NCBI RefSeq assembly: GCF_004214815.1
Contig: NZ_CP035926.1
Span: forward strand, 434,001-498,000
DNA: 64,000 bases
Reading direction: 5' to 3'
Source: Aliarcobacter thereius LMG 24486
Lineage (GTDB): Bacteria; Campylobacterota; Campylobacteria; Campylobacterales; Arcobacteraceae
Position numbers and translations under genes: made by a program. The notes beneath the pieces are model-generated. The model ran no database searches and had not been told where the DNA came from. It worked only from the letters and a program-made list of their open reading frames with translations. Numbering within the stretch: the first letter of the stretch is position 1; every line of letters begins with the position of its first letter. This document shows, piece by piece, positions 23,019 to 33,752 of the stretch.

Positions 23019-23106
23019 AATTTACCTAGTTGGTGGTAAAATATTAGCCCTATACTGGTAAATATTTGCTATTTTCTAGTTCATTTATTAGTTCGCAAGA
23101 ATATAT

Positions 23107-23568
23107 TTATTTCGTAAACTTCAAAGTCAAATCTTTGTAGTTTTTTAAAGTATTTTCTAAGTTTTCCAAAAAAATATCTGGAGCATATACCAACAAATCA
23201 TTTATAGTATGGAATCTATCTTTTGCAATATTGATTTTTTGATTTTGTTCTGGACATATTTTTGATTTTAACAACTCTTTTTCTTCATTTGAAATATCTT
23301 TTAATATATGTTTTAAAACTATTTTTCTAGCACGACTACTATCATCAAATAAAAATTGCTCAGGTATCTCTAAAACTTCTGCTATGTAAGGGATTAGTTC
23401 TATTCTAATACTTACTCTTCCATTTAAATAAGCATAAATTGATTTTTCAGATGGAATTTCTAAAGTATTATTTAATTTTGGTTCTAAATTTCTTAGTTTT
23501 AGAGCAAATTCTTTTTTTGATAGATTTTTCTCTTTTAATAATAAATTTATTCTTTCGTGCATTTCCAT
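23107..23568 (-). CDS. XRE-family HTH transcriptional regulator
   Basis: A 153-residue protein with an N-terminal helix-turn-helix (INLLLKEKNLSKKEFALKL ... EKSIYAYLNGRVSIRIELIPYIAEVLEI) of the Cro/C1 type and a charged C-terminal helical region of unknown role. It is convergent with murG and divergent from the small peptide/Wzz pair. The shared upstream DNA carries paired repeats that could be its operator. Its targets are unknown. Confidence 0.8.
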   Translation of the reverse strand: MEMHERINLLLKEKNLSKKEFALKLRNLEPKLNNTLEIPSEKSIYAYLNGRVSIRIELIPYIAEVLEIPEQFLFDDSSRARKIVLKHILKDISNEEKELLKSKICPEQNQKINIAKDRFHTINDLLVYAPDIFLENLENTLKNYKDLTLKFTK

Positions 23569-23614
23569 TTTTTACCTTTTGAGAAGAATATTAACAGTCA
23601 ATTTTCTATCAAAA

Positions 23615-23656
23615 CAAGAAAATTCCATAAATAATGGATAATAAAGCAAGAAAATT
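23615..23656. promoter_or_regulatory. Paired direct repeats and small palindrome, candidate operator
   Basis: CAAGAAAATT occurs at 23615-23624 and again at 23647-23656, 32 bp apart (three helical turns). Between them is CCAT-AAATA-ATGG (23625-23637). The site lies between the divergent XRE gene and the small peptide/Wzz genes. No binding evidence exists. Confidence 0.4.
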
Positions 23657-23727
23657 ATAATATTTCAAGAATTTAAACAATAAATTATAAATTTATTCTA
23701 ATTTTTAAAGAAAATAGGGGAAATTAT

Positions 23728-23823
23728 ATGCACAAAAAACAAAAACTTTATTTTTATGCTTCGGTTGTAACATTTACAATTTTTGCATCAGCTTTATATA
23801 TTTTAATTATGGTGGCAAAATAG
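23728..23823 (+). CDS. 31-aa single-pass membrane peptide
   Basis: A short open frame (MHKKQKLYFYASVVTFTIFA ... MVAK) preceded by AGGGGAAATT at a good distance. It has a basic N-terminus and one hydrophobic helix of ~20 residues. The TAG stop is immediately followed by the ATG of the Wzz-like gene with no gap, which argues for co-translation. It could be a small partner of the Wzz protein or only an upstream peptide controlling its translation. I recognise no family. Confidence 0.55.
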   Translation: MHKKQKLYFYASVVTFTIFASALYILIMVAK

Positions 23824-24927
23824 ATGCAAGAGAATAGATATATACAAGAAGATGAGATAGATTTAAGAGAGTTATTTAAAATTATTTGGGACAAAAAAAA
23901 TTTTATAATTTTATTTACTTTGGTAGTTACAATTCTAGCTGGAATTTATGCTTACAGCAAAACTCCAATTTATGAAGCAAAATCTATAGTTAGAATAGGT
24001 TATATAGGAGAACAAATTGTTGAACCTAGTAATATTATTGAACAAAAATTAAAAATTATTTTTAATGTTGATAACCCACAAGATAGTGAAGAAGCAATAG
24101 TTACTAAAATTGCTGTAGTAAAAAATGTTCAAAATTTTATTGAAATTTCAACCGAATCATTTTCAAATGAACAAGCTATTAATAAAAATAAAGAAGTTAT
24201 TGAATTTCTTCAAAAAGAATATAAACATAAAATTGATGAATTTATATTAAAAACAAATATTAATATAAAAAATATCGAAGACAAAATAAAATATGCTTTA
24301 GATGTAGAAAAAATTGATCTTCAAAAAAATATAAATAAAATTAAAGAGCAAAAATTAGTAAGAGTTGAAAAAGAGATAGATTTATTAAAAAATGTCGAGC
24401 TTAAAGCAATTAATAAAAAATTAGAATTCAATCAGCAAAAATTAAAAGAGTATCAGAATGATGCCAATAGAATATCAAAACAAATATCAAACGATAATAC
24501 GCAAAATATGCTTATGTCTATACAGTTATTAAATACACAAAATCTAATATTGAATATTCAAAATACAATTGAGAATTTGATAAAAGAAAGAGAAAATTTA
24601 ACAAATTTAAAATTGAAAGATTTAGAGAAAAATAAAGAAAATATATTAAATGATGAAATAAAAAATGCTGAAATAGAATTAAATATAAATTTTGAAAAAA
24701 AACTAGAAGATTTAAATAATAGTTTAGTTTTAGAAAAATTGAAACTTACAAATGATAGAGTGAAAAATAGTAATATTATTGGAGAGATAATCACAAACGA
24801 TTTTCCAGTAAAACCTAAGAAAAAACTAATAGTTGCAGTTGCTTTTGTAACAGGATTTATTATTTCAATATTTTTGGTGTTTTTATTTAATTTTATTAAA
24901 CAATATAGAAATGAAGCAACTTATTAA
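23824..24927 (+). CDS. Wzz/PCP-type polysaccharide chain-length determinant
   Basis: A 367-residue inner-membrane protein. The N-terminal IDLRELFKIIWDKKNFIILFTLVVTILAGIYAY combines the Wzz cytoplasmic motif with the first membrane helix. The long middle is a charged coiled-coil (about 110-320) facing the periplasm. The C-terminus has the PCP motif FPVKPKKKLI before the second helix. Such proteins set O-antigen or capsule chain length with a Wzy polymerase. No polymerase or flippase gene is nearby, so the gene looks orphaned, consistent with gene loss at the junction just downstream. Confidence 0.8.
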   Translation: MQENRYIQEDEIDLRELFKIIWDKKNFIILFTLVVTILAGIYAYSKTPIYEAKSIVRIGYIGEQIVEPSNIIEQKLKIIFNVDNPQDSEEAIVTKIAVVKNVQNFIEISTESFSNEQAINKNKEVIEFLQKEYKHKIDEFILKTNINIKNIEDKIKYALDVEKIDLQKNINKIKEQKLVRVEKEIDLLKNVELKAINKKLEFNQQKLKEYQNDANRISKQISNDNTQNMLMSIQLLNTQNLILNIQNTIENLIKERENLTNLKLKDLEKNKENILNDEIKNAEIELNINFEKKLEDLNNSLVLEKLKLTNDRVKNSNIIGEIITNDFPVKPKKKLIVAVAFVTGFIISIFLVFLFNFIKQYRNEATY

Positions 24928-24984
24928 ATGTTAGTTTATTAATATTTATTATAAAAACCTAAGTTATCGTAACAATGGTTTTAT

Positions 24985-25066
24985 AATAAATAAATTTTTT
25001 AAAACAACAAAAGTATCAAAACTCCAAAAACAATTCTATAAATACTAAAAGCTACAGAGAAAATTA
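24985..25066 (-). pseudogene. Relic of a uppP 3' end
   Basis: On the minus strand this stretch encodes IFSVAFSIYRIVFGVLILLLF followed by TAA, matching the last residues of the intact UppP at 32985 (FVAFGIYRIIFGILILVLF). DNA identity to 32970-33050 is high, and the ~20 bases after the stop (24980-25000) also match 32964-32985. The differences are mostly conservative, so this is the tail of a diverged uppP allele, not a decayed copy of the present gene. It marks a recombination junction. The two copies form an imperfect direct repeat ~7.98 kb apart. Confidence 0.8.
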
Positions 25067-25074
25067 TAATTAGC

Positions 25075-25977
25075 AGTATAAACAAAAATATTAGTTCAGA
25101 GTTTAAGACCATTTTAGAATATTTTGATAAATTAACTACCGAACAATTTATAAATAAATTAAATTTTAGTGAAAAAATTGTAGTTGTAGATGTTGGAGCA
25201 AATCCTATATCAGTACCTCCATATAATATCTTAAATAAAATGGGATTATGTAAAATTGTAGGATTTGAGCCACAGCCACAAGCATATGAAAATTAAAAAG
25301 ATAGAAACCCCGAAAAAGAGGTATATTTCCCATATGCTATTGGAAAAACAGGTACAACAAATTTAAACATTTACAAGGAGAGTGATTTTACATCAACTTA
25401 TAAAATTGATGAAAATACTATTAAATTTATAAATAATCCAAGATGGTATGATGGAACTAGATTAACAGAAACTATCTCTATGGAATGTTTAGCCTTAGAT
25501 AGAATACCTAATTTACCAAAATTCGATTTATTAAAAATTGATATACAATGTGGAGAATTGAATGTTTTTAAAAATGTAAAACAAGTATTAAAACCAGCTA
25601 TTTGTGTAATACCAGAAGTTGGATTTTTTCCTCTTTATGAGAATGCACCAGACTTTGCAGATGTACATAATGAGCTTATTAATCAAGGATTTTTATTTCA
25701 TAAGTTTATGTTTCAAAAACAAGTACATTTACACGGTTCTTTATCTAGTAATAGAAAAATAAATGGTATTAAAAATCAACTAATAGATGGCGATGCAGTT
25801 TATATAAGAGATCCAAGAAAATTAACTCAATATGATACAGATATGCTAAAGAAATTTTTACTTCTTGCTCACTTTGTGTTTGATAGTAAAGATTTAGCTA
25901 TTTTGATATTAGATGAATTGGTTAAAAGAGATGTTGTTTCAAATGGAATTTTAAAGGGATATTTGGATTTGGTTTGA
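25075..25977 (+). pseudogene. FkbM-family methyltransferase, 5'-truncated and with an in-frame stop
   Basis: One frame from ~25075 to 25977 reads through a SAM-binding start (IVVVDVGANPISVPP), FEPQPQAYEN and KFDLLKIDIQCGELNVFK, the FkbM methyltransferase pattern. It has two defects. There is no start codon, because the 5' end is cut at the uppP relic, and TAA at 25294-25296 interrupts the frame. The open part from ATG 25480 lacks the SAM motif I region and cannot be active alone. FkbM enzymes often decorate surface glycans, so this fits an eroded polysaccharide locus next to the Wzz gene. Confidence 0.8.
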
Positions 25978-26050
25978 AAAGTTATAAGTGATATCATTCA
26001 ATTATAATTTAGATAAAATAATTATATCTTAATGAAAGGAGGTAAAAATA

Positions 26051-26203
26051 ATGGCATTATCAGATAGTCAAAAGAAAATGTACTTGGATAAAATTACTCA
26101 AGCACGAAAAAAGATAATTGATATCCAAACAAGAGCACAAAGAGAAATTGCTAATGAAGAGAAGAAAATTATTGAAGCAGAAAAAGTGTTAAGTAGAGGA
26201 TAA
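26051..26203 (+). CDS. 50-aa charged coiled-coil protein
   Basis: Reads MALSDSQKKMYLDKITQARK and continues as an uninterrupted amphipathic, highly charged helix ending EKVLSRG. An exceptionally good ribosome site (AAAGGAGGT) stands 7-8 bases before the ATG, stronger than that of most genes in this window, which supports a real and well-expressed gene. No family recognised. It lies alone inside the putative island between the broken methyltransferase and a tRNA-like element. Confidence 0.65.
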   Translation: MALSDSQKKMYLDKITQARKKIIDIQTRAQREIANEEKKIIEAEKVLSRG

Positions 26204-26277
26204 TTATTTAAAATAAAGTTTTTGTCAAAGATTAATTAACTTTGGCAAAAACAAATATCTTAAAATAAATAAAATTT

Positions 26278-26388
26278 TGGTGTGGGTGAGAAGAATTGAA
26301 CTTCTCTGTGTGTCGTTACTGGAAAAAATTAGCAAGATTTATACTATCGAAGTAGTTATTCAACGTGGATTGGAAACCATTCCCCCAC
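26278..26388 (-). ncRNA. tRNA-like element, possibly a degenerate type II tRNA
   Basis: On the minus strand the 3' end looks like a tRNA: T-stem AGAAG/CTTCT closing T-loop TTCAATT, acceptor strand CACCCAC, discriminator A and encoded CCA. The 5' end offers GTGGGGG (one mismatch to the acceptor). A 7-nt loop on a 5-bp stem (TTGAA/TTCGA) sits where an anticodon arm would be, and a variable-arm-like stem (TTGCT/AGTAA) follows. There is no U33 in the loop and no GG in the D-loop. At 111 nt it is long for a tRNA. A tRNA relic at an island insertion site or an unrelated structured RNA are both possible. Confidence 0.35.
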
Positions 26389-26422
26389 ACAACACACCCC
26401 ATTGAAACTCTAATAATGTCAT
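26360..26422 (-). CDS. Possible 20-aa peptide overlapping the tRNA-like element
   Basis: ATG 26422 is preceded by AAGGAGT at correct spacing and opens a frame reading MTLLEFQWGVLCGGMVSNPR before TGA. The ribosome site is convincing, but the frame is very short and overlaps the tRNA-like sequence. It could be a leader peptide or chance. Confidence 0.25.
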   Translation of the reverse strand: MTLLEFQWGVLCGGMVSNPR

Positions 26423-26537
26423 AATTACTCCTTGTACTTTAATATTTATAGAAATTGATAAATCAATTTTTATGTTTAGACAAATTATAAAATTACAAAA
26501 AAGAGCTACTTCAGTATAAATACAAGCCAATATATCC

Positions 26538-26576
26538 CATATAAATAAAATAAAATTATAATATTTTATTTATATG
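26538..26576. repeat. Inverted repeat, 14-bp perfect arms
   Basis: CATATAAATAAAAT and its complement are separated by 11 bases, upstream of dgt. It may terminate transcription or bind a regulator. The rest of 26204-26667 outside this repeat and the tRNA-like element shows no gene. Confidence 0.6.
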
Positions 26577-26667
26577 AGAATAAAATATAACTTTACCACA
26601 ATATATCATAATATATTTATAAAAAATTTGTATAATCTAACATAAATTTAATTTACAAGGAAACAAA

Positions 26668-28002
26668 ATGCAAAAACAACTTTTATCTACTAAAAGATAT
26701 AAAATAAAAGATGGAACTGTGCAAATAGAAGAAGATAACTTAGAAAATGAGTATAGAACACCCTATCATAGAGATTATGATAGAGTTATATTTTCAAACT
26801 CTTTTAGAAGACTTTCTAAAAAAACTCAAGTACATCCACTGGCAAAAAATGACCATATTCATAATAGATTAACTCATAGTTTAGAGGTTGCAAGTGTAGG
26901 AAGAAGTTTGGGATTAAAAGCTGGTGAGATATTAAAAAATAAATTTGATAAAGATATAAATCCCTATGATGTTGCTTACATAGTTCAGACTGCTTGTTTA
27001 GCACACGATATAGGAAATCCACCCTTTGGGCATGCTGGTGAAGAAGTTATAAAAGAGTGGTTTAAAAAAGATGAAAATCAAAAATATTTAATCAATTTGA
27101 GTGAACAAGAAAAGAAAGATTTTATATCTTTTGATGGAAATGCTCAAAGCATTAGAATAGTTTCTAAAATAGAACACAATTTTGAAGTTGGAATGAGTTT
27201 AACATTTTCAACTATTGCTACTATGATAAAATATCCTTGGAGTTCATGTGATGGTAAAAACAATAAAGATAAGTTTAGTTTTTTTCAAAGTGAAAAAAGC
27301 AATATTATTAATATTTTTGAACAGTTTAATTTAATACAAGATGATATTATATTAAGACACCCTTTTTCTTATCTTATGGAAGCGGCTGATGATATATGTT
27401 ATGGGCTTCTTGATATTCAAGATGCTGTTGAATTGAAAATATTAAGACTTGAAGAATTAGAAAAGATATTTATAGATTTAACTTCTAAACTTTTTTGGGA
27501 AGAAGTTTTAAATGATAAAAATTTAACTGAAATACAAAAGCTTTCAAAATTAATAGCTAAAGGAATAAATAATTTAGCAAATCATACTTCGAATATTTTT
27601 GAAAAGAATTATGAAAGATTACTAAAAGAAAATGTGAAAGATTTAATATTTTTATTTACAGATGAAAATTTAAAATCAGGATTAAAACTTGCTAAAGAGC
27701 TTTCATCTAAAAAAGTATTTAATGAAACAAGAAAAATAGAATTAGAACTTGGAGCTTATAATATATTGGGTGTTTTATTAGATAATATGATAAAAGCTAC
27801 TTATGAATTACATGAAAAAAAAGATATAAAACAGATGAATTTTAAAAATAGAAGAATTTTACAACTTATGGGAGAAGAGAATTCACCAAAAACAGAACAA
27901 AGTTTATACAATAAATATCAAAGAGTTATTGATTATATTGTTGGAATGACAGATAACCATGCAACGTATTTAGCTCATCAATTTAGTGGAATGGGATATT
28001 AA
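26668..28002 (+). CDS. dgt: Deoxyguanosinetriphosphate triphosphohydrolase-like HD protein
   Basis: A 444-residue HD-superfamily dNTPase that splits dGTP (or other dNTPs) to deoxynucleoside and triphosphate. Key motifs are [29 protein letters not shown], the metal-site histidines in [11 protein letters not shown], and [13 protein letters not shown] with the HD pair. The later [20 protein letters not shown] with its Asp is also typical. ATG 26668 follows ACAAGGAAAC. dGTPases are housekeeping in many bacteria but also serve as anti-phage dNTP-depletion factors. Its place among defence-type genes makes the second role plausible, not shown. Confidence 0.9.
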
Positions 28003-28046
28003 ACTATCTTTTATATAATAAAATCATTTCAACACAAGGAAGTTTT

Positions 28047-28771
28047 ATGCTTGATTTTAGAAAATTCAAAGTAGAGATTTATACAAATAAAGAAACTCCT
28101 ATCACGGACAATACAAATCTAACTTACATAAAAGATGAAACAAGAGATGATTTATTTGTAAAAATTTATTACGATAAAATAGAAATAGGACGAGGTATTA
28201 TTTTAGATTTTTATAAAGAATTTGAAAATATAGAAGAAAATGGAAATATTGCAACAAAGATAAAAACTTTTTCTTCAAATGGTAAAACCCATGAAAGTTT
28301 TACAAACTATGGACAAAAGATTTATAAACTCAAATATCTTAAAAGCCTCCAATAGAAGAAGAGGAAAGAAAAAAGTATATTGAAATTTTTGCAAATGAGA
28401 TGAATGCTTATGTTGAAGTAATAGCGAAAAAATACAAAGATATAAAACTATCTTATATTTCATCTAGTTCACTTGTTCCAGATGAGATAGTAGAAAAGAT
28501 AAAAGATTTATCATCTTTGGAAGTAGAAAATATTATTATAAAAAATAGTGGACAAGATAGTAAAAGTATAACTACTTTTAAAGATGGAGTAGAAAATTCT
28601 ATTTTAAAATATACATTAAATGAAAGTTTGTTATCATTGAGTCATCAATATATAGTTATAGATGATGTTATGGGAAATGGTAGCTCTATTGCTACAATAT
28701 TAAAGAAATTATATGATAAAACAAATAAATTAAATTTCTTTTTAATAGTTGCAAAGGATGTAAAAAGATGA
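28047..28771 (+). pseudogene. Phosphoribosyltransferase-domain gene broken by a frameshift
   Basis: Two frames that belong together: 28047-28355 (MLDFRKFKVEIYTN ... LKYLKSLQ) and a continuation in the -1 frame (PPIEEEERKKYIEIFANEMN ... to 28771). They join at CTTAAAAGCC near 28340; one extra A in the A-run would restore LKYLKKPPIEEEE. The second part has the PRPP-loop pattern YIVIDDVMGNGSS of type I phosphoribosyltransferases. The A-run is short, so a fixed mutation or a base-calling error is more likely than phase variation. The 3' end overlaps the next gene by 4 bp, so the pair was an operon. Confidence 0.75.
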
Positions 28772-29499
28772 GTAGTGTTTTCATAAGTGGTTCAAGTTCT
28801 ATAAAAGATTTACCAAACGATGTTATAAAAAGTTTGAAAAATATTATAGATAAAGGGTTTGAAATCTTTGTTGGAGATGCAAAAGGAGTTGATACTTTGA
28901 TTCAACAATACTTTTATAAAAGAAACTATACAAATATAAATATTTGCACTATTTATGAAACTCCTAGATATTTAGCTTCCAATAAATTTAAAATCATACA
29001 AGTAGATTATGATAAAAATCTTTTTGGAGAAAGAGAAAAGCAGACCTATAAAGATGAGTTTATGACTTTGAATAGTAATTATTCTTTTGTGATTTGGGAT
29101 GGAAAAAGCAAAGGGAGTTTTGAGAATATTAAAAGAGCAATAACAAATAATAAAAAATTAAAAGTTTTTTATACTTTAGAAAATAGGTTTTTAGAAAAAG
29201 AGTTGTTGAATATAGAAAATATTACAAATATTTATAAACAAAATACAGGCTACACACAAACAGAGATTTATAATAAAATAAAAGAGTCAAAAATATATAC
29301 AAATATAAATAAAGCAAATGAGATTAAAAAATGGTTAATTGATAATGATATTTTAAAAATCTACAATGACAAACTATCTATAAATCAAAAATATAAAAAC
29401 TATTTTATAGTAGAAAATTATAGAGGAAATGAAAATATAAAATACAAAGCAAATATTTTAGAACTTTTTAAAAACAATTCTCTTTTTGGTAGTTTTTAA
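28768..29499 (+). CDS. SLOG-domain (DprA/LOG-like) protein
   Basis: A 243-residue protein. The N-terminal part (SSVFISGSSSIKDLP ... KGFEIFVGDAKGVDTLIQQYF ... YSFVIWDGKSKGSFENIKRA) is a Rossmann-like SLOG fold with G-S-x-S, GDAKGVD and GKSKGS segments that bind nucleotides or nucleotide-derived ligands. The C-terminal ~90 residues look like a small winged-helix or helical domain. From known work, SLOG proteins often act as ligand sensors or nucleotide-processing parts of conflict systems, and pairing with phosphoribosyltransferases is a recurring theme. The partner gene just upstream is frameshifted. The ATG lies in a 4-bp ATGA overlap. Confidence 0.7.
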   Translation: MSSVFISGSSSIKDLPNDVIKSLKNIIDKGFEIFVGDAKGVDTLIQQYFYKRNYTNINICTIYETPRYLASNKFKIIQVDYDKNLFGEREKQTYKDEFMTLNSNYSFVIWDGKSKGSFENIKRAITNNKKLKVFYTLENRFLEKELLNIENITNIYKQNTGYTQTEIYNKIKESKIYTNINKANEIKKWLIDNDILKIYNDKLSINQKYKNYFIVENYRGNENIKYKANILELFKNNSLFGSF

Positions 29500-29597
29500 A
29501 ATAATAAAATTTATTTGGATAAAAGTAATACAGATAACTCAAAATTTATATTTTTTTAGATAAAATTCAATAATTTTAGACTTAAAAAGGGTAAAAA

Positions 29598-29936
29598 TTG
29601 AAAAATATTAATGAAGTATTGGTAAATATGGATAAGCAAATGTTAGCAGATATAAAAAGTTCTTATTTATCTATTTTCAAAATAAAACAAGATAGCAAAT
29701 CTTTTTTGGATTTAGTAGAGCAAAATGAGCTTTTAAAAGAGGCGGCATATATAGTTAATCCAAATTTCAATGATGCAAAAGGTAGCGTATTTTTAAAAAA
29801 AGATGGACTTTTGCTGTTGGAAGCTGATTTTTTTGCAAATTCTCTTGTAAATGAACCTTTAGATTTTGAATATTCAATCAAAGAATACACTTACAATCAC
29901 CCTTTTTCAAAAACTTTCAATGAGTTTGCTTTTTGA
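29598..29936 (+). CDS. Small uncharacterised partner of a caspase-fold peptidase
   Basis: A 112-residue acidic protein starting at TTG 29598 behind AAAAAGGG. I recognise no family. Predicted content is mixed helix (first ~50 residues) and strands (KGSVFLKKDGLLLLEADFFA), with no signal peptide or membrane helix. Its TGA stop overlaps the TTG start of the caspase-fold gene by 4 bp (TTGA), so the two are translationally coupled and probably act together, for example as substrate, inhibitor or sensor of the peptidase. That role is inference from gene order only. Confidence 0.6.
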   Translation: MKNINEVLVNMDKQMLADIKSSYLSIFKIKQDSKSFLDLVEQNELLKEAAYIVNPNFNDAKGSVFLKKDGLLLLEADFFANSLVNEPLDFEYSIKEYTYNHPFSKTFNEFAF

Positions 29937-30853
29937 ATGAAATAAGAGAAAAGCGAACAAATTTTTTTAACAATAATACTCACTATGTATTGTTTTCAGG
30001 TACACCTAAAAATGGGAATGGACCAATAAGACATCTAAATGACTTATTTATAATTTTATATTTAATCAACAAAAATTCTATTCCAAGAGAGAATGTATTT
30101 TTATCTATTGATACACAAATACTCGAAGATTTAGATGAGGTTACTAGCAATAAGAAATTTAAATATTTTGAAAGTGCTAACAAAACTTTTAAAGAAGTAA
30201 TAAAAGAGTGGATTCCAAAAGAAAATATAATAGATATATTTGATTTTGAAGAAAACTATAAAAGAGATGATAAAGATTTGGTCTTTATCGCAAGTGGACA
30301 TGGTTCTATAAGTGGTTTAGAAATTGGAGACAGCCAAAGGAAAGCTCTATCTTCTGACTATTTTGAAAATATTTCAAGCAATAAAAATAAAACAATTTTA
30401 ATAATGTCACAATGCCAAGCTGCAGCTTTTCATCATCTTGATACAAGAAAGAATATTTGTGTTATGGGTGCTTCTGATTATCAAAGTTCTGTTAGTTTAA
30501 ATTTAAAAAGTATGTTAGATTGTACAATTTTAAAGCATAGAGAGTTTATAGATGGATTTACATTTAAAGAAAATATACCTATTAACCCTTTTATATTTTC
30601 ACTTTTTTATGTACTTTCTCAAAAAGAAACTCTTATAAATAGTGAAAAAAAGCATTTTATTAATATCTTCAAATATACAGCGGCTAGTACATTGGATTAT
30701 TTATCAAAATCTGGTAAACGAGAAATATATATTTCTAAAAAAGATTTAGAAAAAGTAGAAAATGAAGTAATAGTGCTTTCTTTTAAGGAGAGGATACTAA
30801 TTCAACAACCTTTTTTATTAAATAAAATAATGGCTGCAAATATTTATGTATGA
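29933..30853 (+). CDS. Clan CD (caspase/C13-like) cysteine peptidase
   Basis: A 306-residue protein. A hydrophobic strand leads to GHG (DLVFIASGHGSISG, H123), and ~38 residues later a second strand leads to a catalytic-type cysteine (TILIMSQCQAAAF, C161). Next comes ICVMGASDYQSS, a typical post-Cys segment. This is the His-Gly-spacer and Ala/Gln-Cys layout of clan CD (caspase, legumain, CHAT). The N-terminal YVLFSGTPKNGNGPIRHLNDL and the helical C-terminal third (from ~200) match nothing I know. It starts at TTG inside the stop of the small upstream gene. No signal peptide is seen, so it is probably cytosolic. Substrate and trigger are unknown. Confidence 0.7.
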   Translation: MNEIREKRTNFFNNNTHYVLFSGTPKNGNGPIRHLNDLFIILYLINKNSIPRENVFLSIDTQILEDLDEVTSNKKFKYFESANKTFKEVIKEWIPKENIIDIFDFEENYKRDDKDLVFIASGHGSISGLEIGDSQRKALSSDYFENISSNKNKTILIMSQCQAAAFHHLDTRKNICVMGASDYQSSVSLNLKSMLDCTILKHREFIDGFTFKENIPINPFIFSLFYVLSQKETLINSEKKHFINIFKYTAASTLDYLSKSGKREIYISKKDLEKVENEVIVLSFKERILIQQPFLLNKIMAANIYV

Positions 30854-30900
30854 ACTAGTTTAAAAATCTCTTTTTGATTATTTTTAAAATAATAAATCAT

Positions 30901-30925
30901 ATATTTGTAAAAAAATTACAAATAT
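30901..30925. repeat. Perfect 10-bp inverted repeat upstream of rloA
   Basis: ATATTTGTAA-AAAAA-TTACAAATAT, ~15 bp ahead of a -10-like TACAAT (30940-30945). It could be an operator for the RloA/RloB genes or the end of the peptidase transcript. Confidence 0.6.
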
Positions 30926-30971
30926 AAAGTTTATTTTGCTACAATTCTAAAATTTAATTAGGATTTATAAT

Positions 30972-32249
30972 ATGTTTTTACAATTTACAGTGAATAATTT
31001 TTTATCTATCAAAGAAAAAGCAACTTTTAGTATGCTAGATAATTCAAAAGAAGATAAAAACTCTTTTTCTATTAGAGATTACAACCTACTTAGAACATCT
31101 GTGATATATGGTGCAAATGCAAGTGGAAAAACAAATATTTTAAAAGCCATGAGTTTTATGAGAACTTTAGTTTTAAATAAATATAAGATTATCCAATCTA
31201 CAGATATATTGCCATACTCACCTTTTAGACTTAACACTAGCACAAAAGAGTCTTCTAGTAGTTTTGAGATGGTTTTTTTTATAGATGAAAAAAAATATAG
31301 ATATGGTTTTGAACTAGATAGCACAACAATATATAGTGAGTGGTTATTTGAAGATGAAAAAGGCAAAGAAGCAAAACTTTTTTATAGAGATATAGATGAA
31401 GAAGATTATGTAAACAATCAAAAATTCAAAGAGGGTTATAGCTTTTTTGATAAATCAAACAAAAAAATAAATATTGCACAAAATCAGCTTTTTTTGTGGG
31501 TTTGTGATAGATTAGCAAATTCAACTATATCAAAATCTATTTTAAAATGGTTTTCAAATTTTAATATGCTAGACGGTACAGATAGCAACGGCTATATGAA
31601 CTTTACACTTAGAAAAATGGAAGATGAAGAGTTCAAAAAAGAGATAGTAAATCTAGTAAAAACAGCAGATATAGGGATAGAAAATATCGATTTACAAGAA
31701 GATGACATTCATTTTGACGATGTTTCAAAAGTACAATTACCAGAATTTATAAAAGAAGAGATACTAAAAAATGGTGGTGTAAAATCTATTAGTATAAATA
31801 CTTCTCATAAAGTTTTTGATGATGAAAACAATTTTATTACACATGAGACTTTTGAATTAGAAAAAGATGAATCATTTGGTACAAAAAAATTTTTTAAAAT
31901 CTCTGCCCCTGTAATAGATACTTTAAAAAATGGAAAAATACTTTTAATAGATGAGTTAGATAGTAGTTTACATCCAATTTTAACAAAGCATTTAATCAAA
32001 CTTTTTAATGATGAAAAAATAAATAAAAACAACGCTCAACTAATATTTACAACTCACGATACAAATCTTTTAAAACCAACTATATTTAAAAGAGAGCAAA
32101 TTTGGTTTACACAAAAAGATAAATATGGTTCTACAAATTTATATTCTATGCTAGAAATTAAAGGGGTAAGAGCAAGTGATGATTTTGAAAAGCACTACAT
32201 CCAAGGTAAATATGGAGCAGTTCCATATATTGGGGAATTTGAGTTTTAA
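30972..32249 (+). CDS. AAA15/RloA-type ATPase
   Basis: A 425-residue ABC/SMC-like ATPase. The N-terminal FTVNNFLSIKEKATFSM is followed by the Walker A YGANASGKTN (about 47-56). A long insertion precedes the Walker B KILLIDELDSSLHP with catalytic Glu, then the switch histidine in IFTTHDTNLL and a C-terminal AVPYIGEF. This is the RloA layout (restriction-linked ORF of Campylobacter, AAA15). Its partner RloB starts right after the stop with no gap, so the pair is an operon. From recall, AbiL-type abortive infection uses the same pair of families; the anti-phage role here is inferred. Confidence 0.82.
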   Translation: MFLQFTVNNFLSIKEKATFSMLDNSKEDKNSFSIRDYNLLRTSVIYGANASGKTNILKAMSFMRTLVLNKYKIIQSTDILPYSPFRLNTSTKESSSSFEMVFFIDEKKYRYGFELDSTTIYSEWLFEDEKGKEAKLFYRDIDEEDYVNNQKFKEGYSFFDKSNKKINIAQNQLFLWVCDRLANSTISKSILKWFSNFNMLDGTDSNGYMNFTLRKMEDEEFKKEIVNLVKTADIGIENIDLQEDDIHFDDVSKVQLPEFIKEEILKNGGVKSISINTSHKVFDDENNFITHETFELEKDESFGTKKFFKISAPVIDTLKNGKILLIDELDSSLHPILTKHLIKLFNDEKINKNNAQLIFTTHDTNLLKPTIFKREQIWFTQKDKYGSTNLYSMLEIKGVRASDDFEKHYIQGKYGAVPYIGEFEF

Positions 32250-32972
32250 ATGGCTAGAAAAAAACTATATACAAATAATAAAGAAAAATCTAAAGATGAT
32301 TTTAAAAGAAAAAAGCAAATCAAAGAGCAAGTAAAAAGTGTATTAATAGCTTGTGAAGATAAAATATCTTCTCCAAACTATTTTAAAATGATTATTAAAA
32401 AATTAATAGAAGATAAAAAAATTACTCAAGACTCTTTGGTAATAGCAAAGCATGAACATGTAAATCCTAAGGGTGTTTTACAAGATTTATTAAATCATAA
32501 AAAAGATGATAAAACTTACAAAGATTTTGAACATAGATGGATTGTAATTGATAGAGATATTGCTAGAGTAAATGGAGGAGGACATCCAAAAGATGATTTT
32601 TTGACAGCTCTAAGTGAGGCAAAAAGCAAAAGAGTTGAAGTTGCATATTCAAATGATTGTTTTGAGATTTGGTATTTGTTACATTTTGTTTATAGAGATA
32701 CGGCTATAAGCAGAGATGATGTTATAAAAGAAGTTATCAAAAAACTCAAAGATAAAAACTTTGCAACTTTTTCAAAACTAAATAAAGAAAATATAAAAAC
32801 AGAAGCCATGACAGAACTTATTTTTAATGAACTTTTAGAATTACAAAAAACAGCTATAAAAAATGCAAAAAAACTACTTAAAAATTATGCAGATTTACAC
32901 AATCCAGAACTTGACAATCCCTCAACTAGAGTATTTGAACTAGTAGAAATTTTGAGTAACAAAATTTTATAA
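32250..32972 (+). CDS. RloB-family protein (TOPRIM-like nuclease candidate)
   Basis: A 240-residue basic protein immediately after the RloA-type ATPase. RloB hallmarks are visible: a VLIACEDKISSPNYF segment (the family's C-E-G-x-x-T-E-x-x-Y-F with E kept), a WIVIDRD acidic motif, and VAYSNDCFEIWYLLHF near residue 135-150. The glutamate and DxD-type residues suggest a TOPRIM-like metal site. It probably works with RloA, coupling ATP hydrolysis to nucleic-acid cleavage; this is inferred from the family and from OLD/Gabija analogies. The last codons lie in the shared repeat that bounds the island. Confidence 0.78.
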   Translation: MARKKLYTNNKEKSKDDFKRKKQIKEQVKSVLIACEDKISSPNYFKMIIKKLIEDKKITQDSLVIAKHEHVNPKGVLQDLLNHKKDDKTYKDFEHRWIVIDRDIARVNGGGHPKDDFLTALSEAKSKRVEVAYSNDCFEIWYLLHFVYRDTAISRDDVIKEVIKKLKDKNFATFSKLNKENIKTEAMTELIFNELLELQKTAIKNAKKLLKNYADLHNPELDNPSTRVFELVEILSNKIL

Positions 32973-33050
32973 TAAATAAATTTTTCAAAACAAAACTAGT
33001 ATCAAAATCCCAAAAATAATTCTATAAATACCAAAAGCTACAAAAGTAAA
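32964..33050. repeat. Right copy of the island-bounding repeat (3' end of intact uppP)
   Basis: Imperfect direct repeat of 24980-25066. TTTTATAATAAATAAATTTTT is identical in both, followed by uppP C-terminal coding sequence at clearly lower but high identity. See the relic entry. Confidence 0.8.
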
Positions 33051-33752
33051 TTTTTCTAAAAATTTTAGGAATAGTTTAATTACAATAAAAGCAACTAAAA
33101 AAGATACTATAAAACCAATTATTAAAGGAAGTAAGTTTCCAGTTTGAAGTATCTCTTCGTAATGCTTTAGCACATCATAAAAAGTTGTAGCACACATAAC
33201 AGGAACAGCAAGTAAAAATGAAAATTCAGCACTTGCTTTTCTGTTTAATCCTACAATCATAGCTCCAATAATACTAGCTCCTGCTCTACTTGTTCCTGGA
33301 ATTAAAGCAAAAATTTGTGCAAAACCAATCCACATTGCTTGTTTTAAAGATACATCTTCTACATCATTTATATGACTCTTTTTCTCATCATAAAATTTTT
33401 CAACTATTAAAAATATAATACCACCAATTATAAACATCCAAGCTACAATTTGAATTGAAAATAGGGCTTTTATTTGATTAGAAAATATAAAACCAACAAT
33501 ACCAATAGGAATAAAAGCTAAAAAGATTTTTGTCCATAAATTAATATGTTTAAAAGTAAATTTAGAAGGATAAACAAATACTAAAGCCATAATCGCTGCA
33601 AATTGAATAATAATTTCAAATGCTTTATTTGCATTATTTTGTTCTAAACCTAGAACTTCACTTAAAAATATTAAGTGACCTGTTGAAGATACGGGGATAA
33701 ATTCTGTAATACCTTCAATTATTCCCAAAAATATGGCATCGAATATTGTCAT
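32985..33752 (-). CDS. uppP: Undecaprenyl-diphosphatase UppP (BacA)
   Basis: A 255-residue inner-membrane enzyme with about eight hydrophobic segments. It dephosphorylates undecaprenyl pyrophosphate to recycle the lipid carrier for peptidoglycan and surface glycans. The two conserved signatures are present: GIIEGITEFIPVSSTGHLIF near the N-terminus and LIPGTSRAGASIIGAMIVGL in the second half. Its ATG overlaps the mqnA stop by 1 bp. Its 3' end is duplicated in diverged form at 24985, and it forms the right edge of the putative island. Confidence 0.95.
   Translation of the reverse strand: MTIFDAIFLGIIEGITEFIPVSSTGHLIFLSEVLGLEQNNANKAFEIIIQFAAIMALVFVYPSKFTFKHINLWTKIFLAFIPIGIVGFIFSNQIKALFSIQIVAWMFIIGGIIFLIVEKFYDEKKSHINDVEDVSLKQAMWIGFAQIFALIPGTSRAGASIIGAMIVGLNRKASAEFSFLLAVPVMCATTFYDVLKHYEEILQTGNLLPLIIGFIVSFLVAFIVIKLFLKFLEKFTFVAFGIYRIIFGILILVLF

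Follow-up and report, generated by a model that had tools for sequence, protein, structure and literature searches.

A 1388-bp unit in an Aliarcobacter thereius defence block encodes a predicted C13-like cysteine peptidase coupled to a small protein

We report here a pair of overlapping genes within a defence block of Aliarcobacter thereius LMG 24486. In the stretch of DNA analysed (the window, 64,000 nucleotides, in a genome that forms one contig of 1,915,080 bp around it), a gene for a small protein of 112 aa (29598-29936, forward strand) is followed by a gene for a protein of 306 aa (29933-30853, forward strand). The two are present or absent together between this organism and a sister species, and the larger protein has the predicted features of a caspase-fold protease. 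We read the pair as an exchangeable cassette of the toxin-antitoxin or abortive-infection type, in which a C13-like protease is accompanied by a small partner that is most likely its inhibitor, and we give this reading a probability of about 45%.

Predicted fold and catalytic dyad of the larger protein

Structure prediction and sequence comparison make it very probable that the 306-aa protein belongs to the cysteine peptidases of clan CD, with predicted catalytic activity, and the best reading is a cytosolic, highly diverged, C13-like (legumain-like) peptidase. A full-length AlphaFold model computed without an alignment had a pLDDT of 39, and legumain topped its list of structural matches (Z 7.8 and 7.0). 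Residues 12-216 alone, also without an alignment, gave a better model, although one of low confidence (pLDDT 53, pTM 0.57). For this core model, C13 entries, namely, plant and human legumains, butelase, peptide ligases, and GPI transamidases, occupied ranks 1-15 (Z 8.4-7.3), with the first unrelated protein at Z 7.2 and metacaspase 4 at Z 6.7; because such Z values are close to the background of the method, the argument for C13 rests on one family being consistently on top rather than on the height of Z. A Foldseek search with the same model (pLDDT 53) gave no match at an E-value of 0.001 or better. In the VIA-align lists other clan CD families were not prominent, which carries no weight against those families.

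In both models, adjacent strands end at GHG (H123) and SQC (C161), that is, in the order of His followed by Cys that defines the clan CD dyad. A bacterial C13 protein (G094, L074), encoded in another family of the same order, aligned locally with the peptidase at a score of 86, compared with 45.4 ± 8.0 for shuffled sequences, 0 of 500 of which scored as high. This alignment places GHG on DHG and SQC on DTC, so that the catalytic residues align unforced, and a single BLASTP comparison of the two proteins gave an E-value of 8e-4. When the peptidase, this C13 protein, and a plant legumain were aligned with MAFFT, the His and the Cys were invariant and R33-H34-x-x-D37 fell on the R-H-x-x-D of legumain; the legumain query matches solved legumains (jack bean, 6xt5) nearly letter for letter. 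Arg44 and His45 in helix 1 of legumain contribute to the pocket for Asn/Asp (PMC4357240). Residues R33-H34 are possible S1 residues by this comparison, and the predicted peptidase probably cleaves after Asn or Asp.

The predicted dyad thus exceeds a coincidence of motifs. The original prediction had proposed a caspase-type fold with H123 (in GHG) and C161 (in SQCQAAAF) as the catalytic residues; its catalytic call was right, the fold is tentatively supported by the low-confidence models, and the call can be narrowed to the C13 branch. On its proviso that H123 and C161 be conserved in homologues, no close homologue was found, and both residues fall on those of remote C13 proteins. By contrast, its statement that the N-terminal part matches nothing was wrong, as this part is a piece of the predicted C13-like fold and includes the R-H-x-x-D motif of legumain.

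Curated family models do not recognize the protein. Searches of Pfam, NCBIfam, PADLOC, PHROG, and PDB sequences with the peptidase returned no match of value. The C13 model PF01650 did not match it at E ≤ 1 and matched nothing in the genome at E ≤ 10, and the C14 model PF00656 left it unmatched, its sole match in the genome being another gene. Since the profiles of both families miss it, we call the peptidase C13-like rather than a member of C13. No real homologue was found in 150 relatives, 397 genomes of the phylum, genome contigs, viral contigs, plasmids, and phages, in pattern scans that may miss diverged ones; matches at E-values of 1e-4 to 1 in the 397 genomes, which included stop-containing frames and TssC-like proteins, were dismissed as chance. 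By sequence searches the peptidase is so far confined to this genome. Elsewhere in the same genome there is a second caspase-type (C14) protease (L073; G000:C1:1178305-1178988), apparently fused to WD40-like repeats.

Translation coupling and the family of the small protein

Both open reading frames were borne out, with the small gene first and a shared segment of 4 bp as predicted: codon statistics preferred the annotated frame for both genes at levels similar to those of neighbouring genes, and in 300 shuffles of the 306-aa gene the longest open run was 102 codons. Both genes start at TTG. Upstream of this codon, the small gene has AAAAAGGG, and its homologue in another species of the genus (G030) has AAAAAGG. 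For the peptidase, the sole usable start is the TTG within the stop overlap, the next in-frame Met being residue 158; neither a ribosome-binding site of its own nor an ATG upstream of codon 158 was seen, which makes translation by reinitiation after the small gene probable. Predicted promoters across the region did not exceed chance level.

Relative to the small gene, the peptidase is encoded in the -1 frame, and at the stop codon of the small gene a slip from TTT to TTT would be possible. It is thus conceivable that a single gene was split by a frameshift, or that programmed -1 slippage at GCT TTT TGA generates a fusion protein of about 420 aa. We regard this as very improbable, because the G030 homologue likewise terminates at a stop codon of its own once 112 residues are complete and remote relatives are of similar size (about 115-123 aa), which argues for 112 aa as the native length; on the same grounds, a split by frameshift is rejected.

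The G030 homologue is 73-75% identical to the small protein. Substitutions between the two genes (dN 0.15, dS saturated; 26, 8, and 47 differences at codon positions 1-3) indicate purifying selection on the 112-aa frame. The homologue stands alone without a peptidase and is followed by a Schlafen/AlbA-type gene. A remote and unnamed family, with members of the size given above, is present in one genus, itself from a different family of the order (profile comparison with the small protein, probability 93%, E 3.2e-7). When this family was used for the reciprocal search, it picked up the small protein in this genome (E 1.3e-5), and across 120 relatives the only further match was the G030 copy. 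At the two loci inspected (L082 1396-1767; L085 1477-1824), the gene is flanked by a PpiD-like gene and bioA, overlapping bioA by 4 bp in one of them, and no peptidase is present. Frames of about 500 aa in three further genomes (G100, G111, and G126) that matched the small protein are threonine synthase and were rejected as chance matches.

The family of the small protein thus exists independently of the peptidase, as the loci in G030 and in the remote genus indicate. The proposal that the two proteins form a module travelling as a pair is not supported, given that the close homologue is solitary and the remote family lacks the peptidase at the loci inspected. The profile search suggested for finding paired homologues elsewhere has so far given unpaired homologues of the small gene, and for the peptidase no detectable relative. 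Profile searches agree with the original view that the 112-aa protein has no recognizable domain: they gave no enzymatic, sensor, or pore domain and no match to a nuclease model.

A 1388-bp unit between direct repeats

The gene pair is located in a region (23019-32984) that is an insertion between murG and uppP. Among 14 genomes of the same genus, the ends of these two genes are at most about 31 bp apart in 11 and separated by different insertions in two; in the remaining one, the stretch taken did not yield murG. In the sister species (G009), the murG/uppP site is without an insertion and the block corresponding to 26273-32967, with dGTPase, PRTase-like, SLOG-like, and AbiL genes, is found elsewhere in the chromosome at 95-98% nucleotide identity to the window, yet without the gene pair.

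The neighbours of the pair, which lie outside it on the forward strand, are a SLOG-like gene named by motif only (slog, 28768-29499) and the genes for AbiLi (AAA_21) and AbiLii (RloB; together 30972-32972). The gap between slog and abiLi is 1472 bp in the window and 84 bp in the sister species, and the difference, 1388 bp, is the same as the distance between the copies of a direct repeat that flanks the pair. The left copy of this repeat (29476-29508) overlaps the 3' end of slog, the right copy lies at 30864-30896, and the sister species has a single copy. The window therefore contains a unit of 1388 bp (29509-30896), comprising the two genes, no others, and one repeat copy, that the corresponding block of the sister species lacks. 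The repeat is imperfect, with a 26-base core that occurs without mismatch at these two sites only in the whole genome; a dispersed att-like repeat was considered and rejected for this reason. The single copy in the sister species resembles the left copy in the coding end of slog and the right copy beyond it, and both insertion with duplication and excision by recombination would fit this sequence.

This comparison and the spacing of the repeat are new and are the strongest new evidence, and they make the pair worth testing. An overlapping pair that is gained or lost as a unit, as found here, is characteristic of two-gene toxin-antitoxin systems, and given a sister species with a near-identical cluster that lacks the insert, the pair has the appearance of a defence or toxin-antitoxin cassette that can be exchanged. 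Of the proposed two-gene module in a defence island, the 4-bp overlap and the 1388-bp unit uphold the unit and its context; its conservation as a module is not supported, the family of the partner being independent and the peptidase so far known only from here. Alternatively, the genes could be chance neighbours, with a peptidase that works alone and a small gene that serves another purpose. Homologues of the small gene without a peptidase, in G030 and another genus, suit this explanation, which we consider unlikely in view of the 4-bp overlap, the lack of an independent start signal for the peptidase, and the gain or loss of both genes as one unit.

In two other species, a HipB-HipS-HipT set (G013, L063 13359-14916; G005, L108 722-2279) stands at the murG/uppP site, immediately preceded by a fragment of the 3' end of slog. 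At least two unrelated small cassettes, the gene pair and HipBST, have therefore made use of the slot after the slog 3' end.

Several further features of the block were observed. The larger defence block is itself flanked by a second direct repeat of 98 bp (86%; window 24969-25065 and 32956-33052), consisting of the 3' ends of rloB and uppP, in a pattern that resembles the arrangement of slog 3' end sequence on either side of the pair. A perfect inverted repeat, ATATTTGTAA/TTACAAATAT (window 30901-30925), is found upstream of abiLi and is common to the sister species; it is a possible operator or terminator. The PRTase-like gene is one ORF of 241 aa in the sister species (L109 4456-5181) and two ORFs in the window (28047-28355 and 28400-28771); by comparison to the intact copy, it is probably frameshifted in this genome. 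Conversely, rloB (AbiLii) is interrupted in the sister species (L109 1827-2365) and intact in the window. The PRTase-like and SLOG-like genes recur as a pair (window 28400-29499; L112 1270-2741) in other Campylobacterota, and SLOG-like relatives are also found on plasmids of other phyla, with the peptidase absent in the regions inspected.

Proposed function and comparison with known systems

A toxin-antitoxin or abortive-infection function of the cassette is favoured by its gain or loss as a unit, by coupled translation with the small gene first, by its defence neighbours (dGTPase and AbiL), and by HipBST in the same slot. In the mechanism that we propose, the small partner, translationally coupled to the protease, would most likely keep it inactive. 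Upon infection or stress, the partner would be lost or modified and the protease freed, and its cleavage of cell or phage proteins would then stop growth. That the protease is active, which residues it prefers, that the partner inhibits it, what triggers it, and that it acts in phage defence are what we infer here. The small gene being first and surviving alone in G030 fits an antitoxin, which can survive alone, and not a toxin, which cannot. As the family occurs in another genus without the peptidase, protease inhibition would not be its general role.

The main rival to inhibition assigns the small protein the role of an activator, sensor, adaptor, or cleavage target, which either switches the protease on at infection or is a pro-effector cut by it. 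There is a precedent in the caspase-nuclease (Canu) systems, in which the caspase CanA forms a complex with CanB, the two co-purify, and the nuclease CanC is activated by CanA (PMC12799240); moreover, the coupled gene order suits any partner role. However, no enzymatic, sensor, or pore domain can be recognized in the small protein, and a solitary homologue in G030 would be odd for a dedicated activator or substrate. We consider this alternative possible and less probable than a cassette with an inhibitor. Similarly tentative is the fuller proposal of a compact immune or addiction module, in which a cytosolic legumain-type protease would be held by a dedicated small protein recruited from a protease-free family, on a cassette of 1.4 kb moved between direct repeats.

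The natural presence and absence of the pair in a near-identical block of sister species provides a clean basis for testing function, and the recurring boundary at the slog 3' end is a slot for finding further small defence cassettes. HipBST resembles the pair in being a small co-directional multi-gene cassette that follows slog 3' end sequence, in G005 and G013 at the murG/uppP site, but it consists of a kinase toxin and an HTH antitoxin without sequence similarity to the pair. With C13 proteins (legumain, butelase, and GPI transamidase; PF01650) the peptidase shares the predicted fold, the order of the His-Gly/Cys dyad, and R-H-x-x-D at the start of helix 1; in contrast to them, it escapes the Pfam model, shows neither a signal peptide nor a legumain-type C-terminal domain, and is set in bacterial defence. 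Like the pair, Canu (CanABC) occurs in defence islands and encodes a small partner together with a caspase-fold protease, whereas the pair consists of two genes instead of three, with no nuclease gene or Ig-like domain recognized and hence no caspase-linked pro-nuclease. Type IV Thoeris, Craspase (TPR-CHAT), and gasdermin-linked proteases likewise employ a caspase-fold protease as immune effector, but no TIR, gRAMP, TPR, or gasdermin gene adjoins the pair. To our knowledge, known bacterial caspase-fold defence proteases are large or reliant on gasdermin, CRISPR, TIR, or nuclease partners. If our reading is true, few such switches would be smaller than this two-gene unit with its legumain-like protease, which would also introduce the C13 branch of the clan into bacterial conflict.
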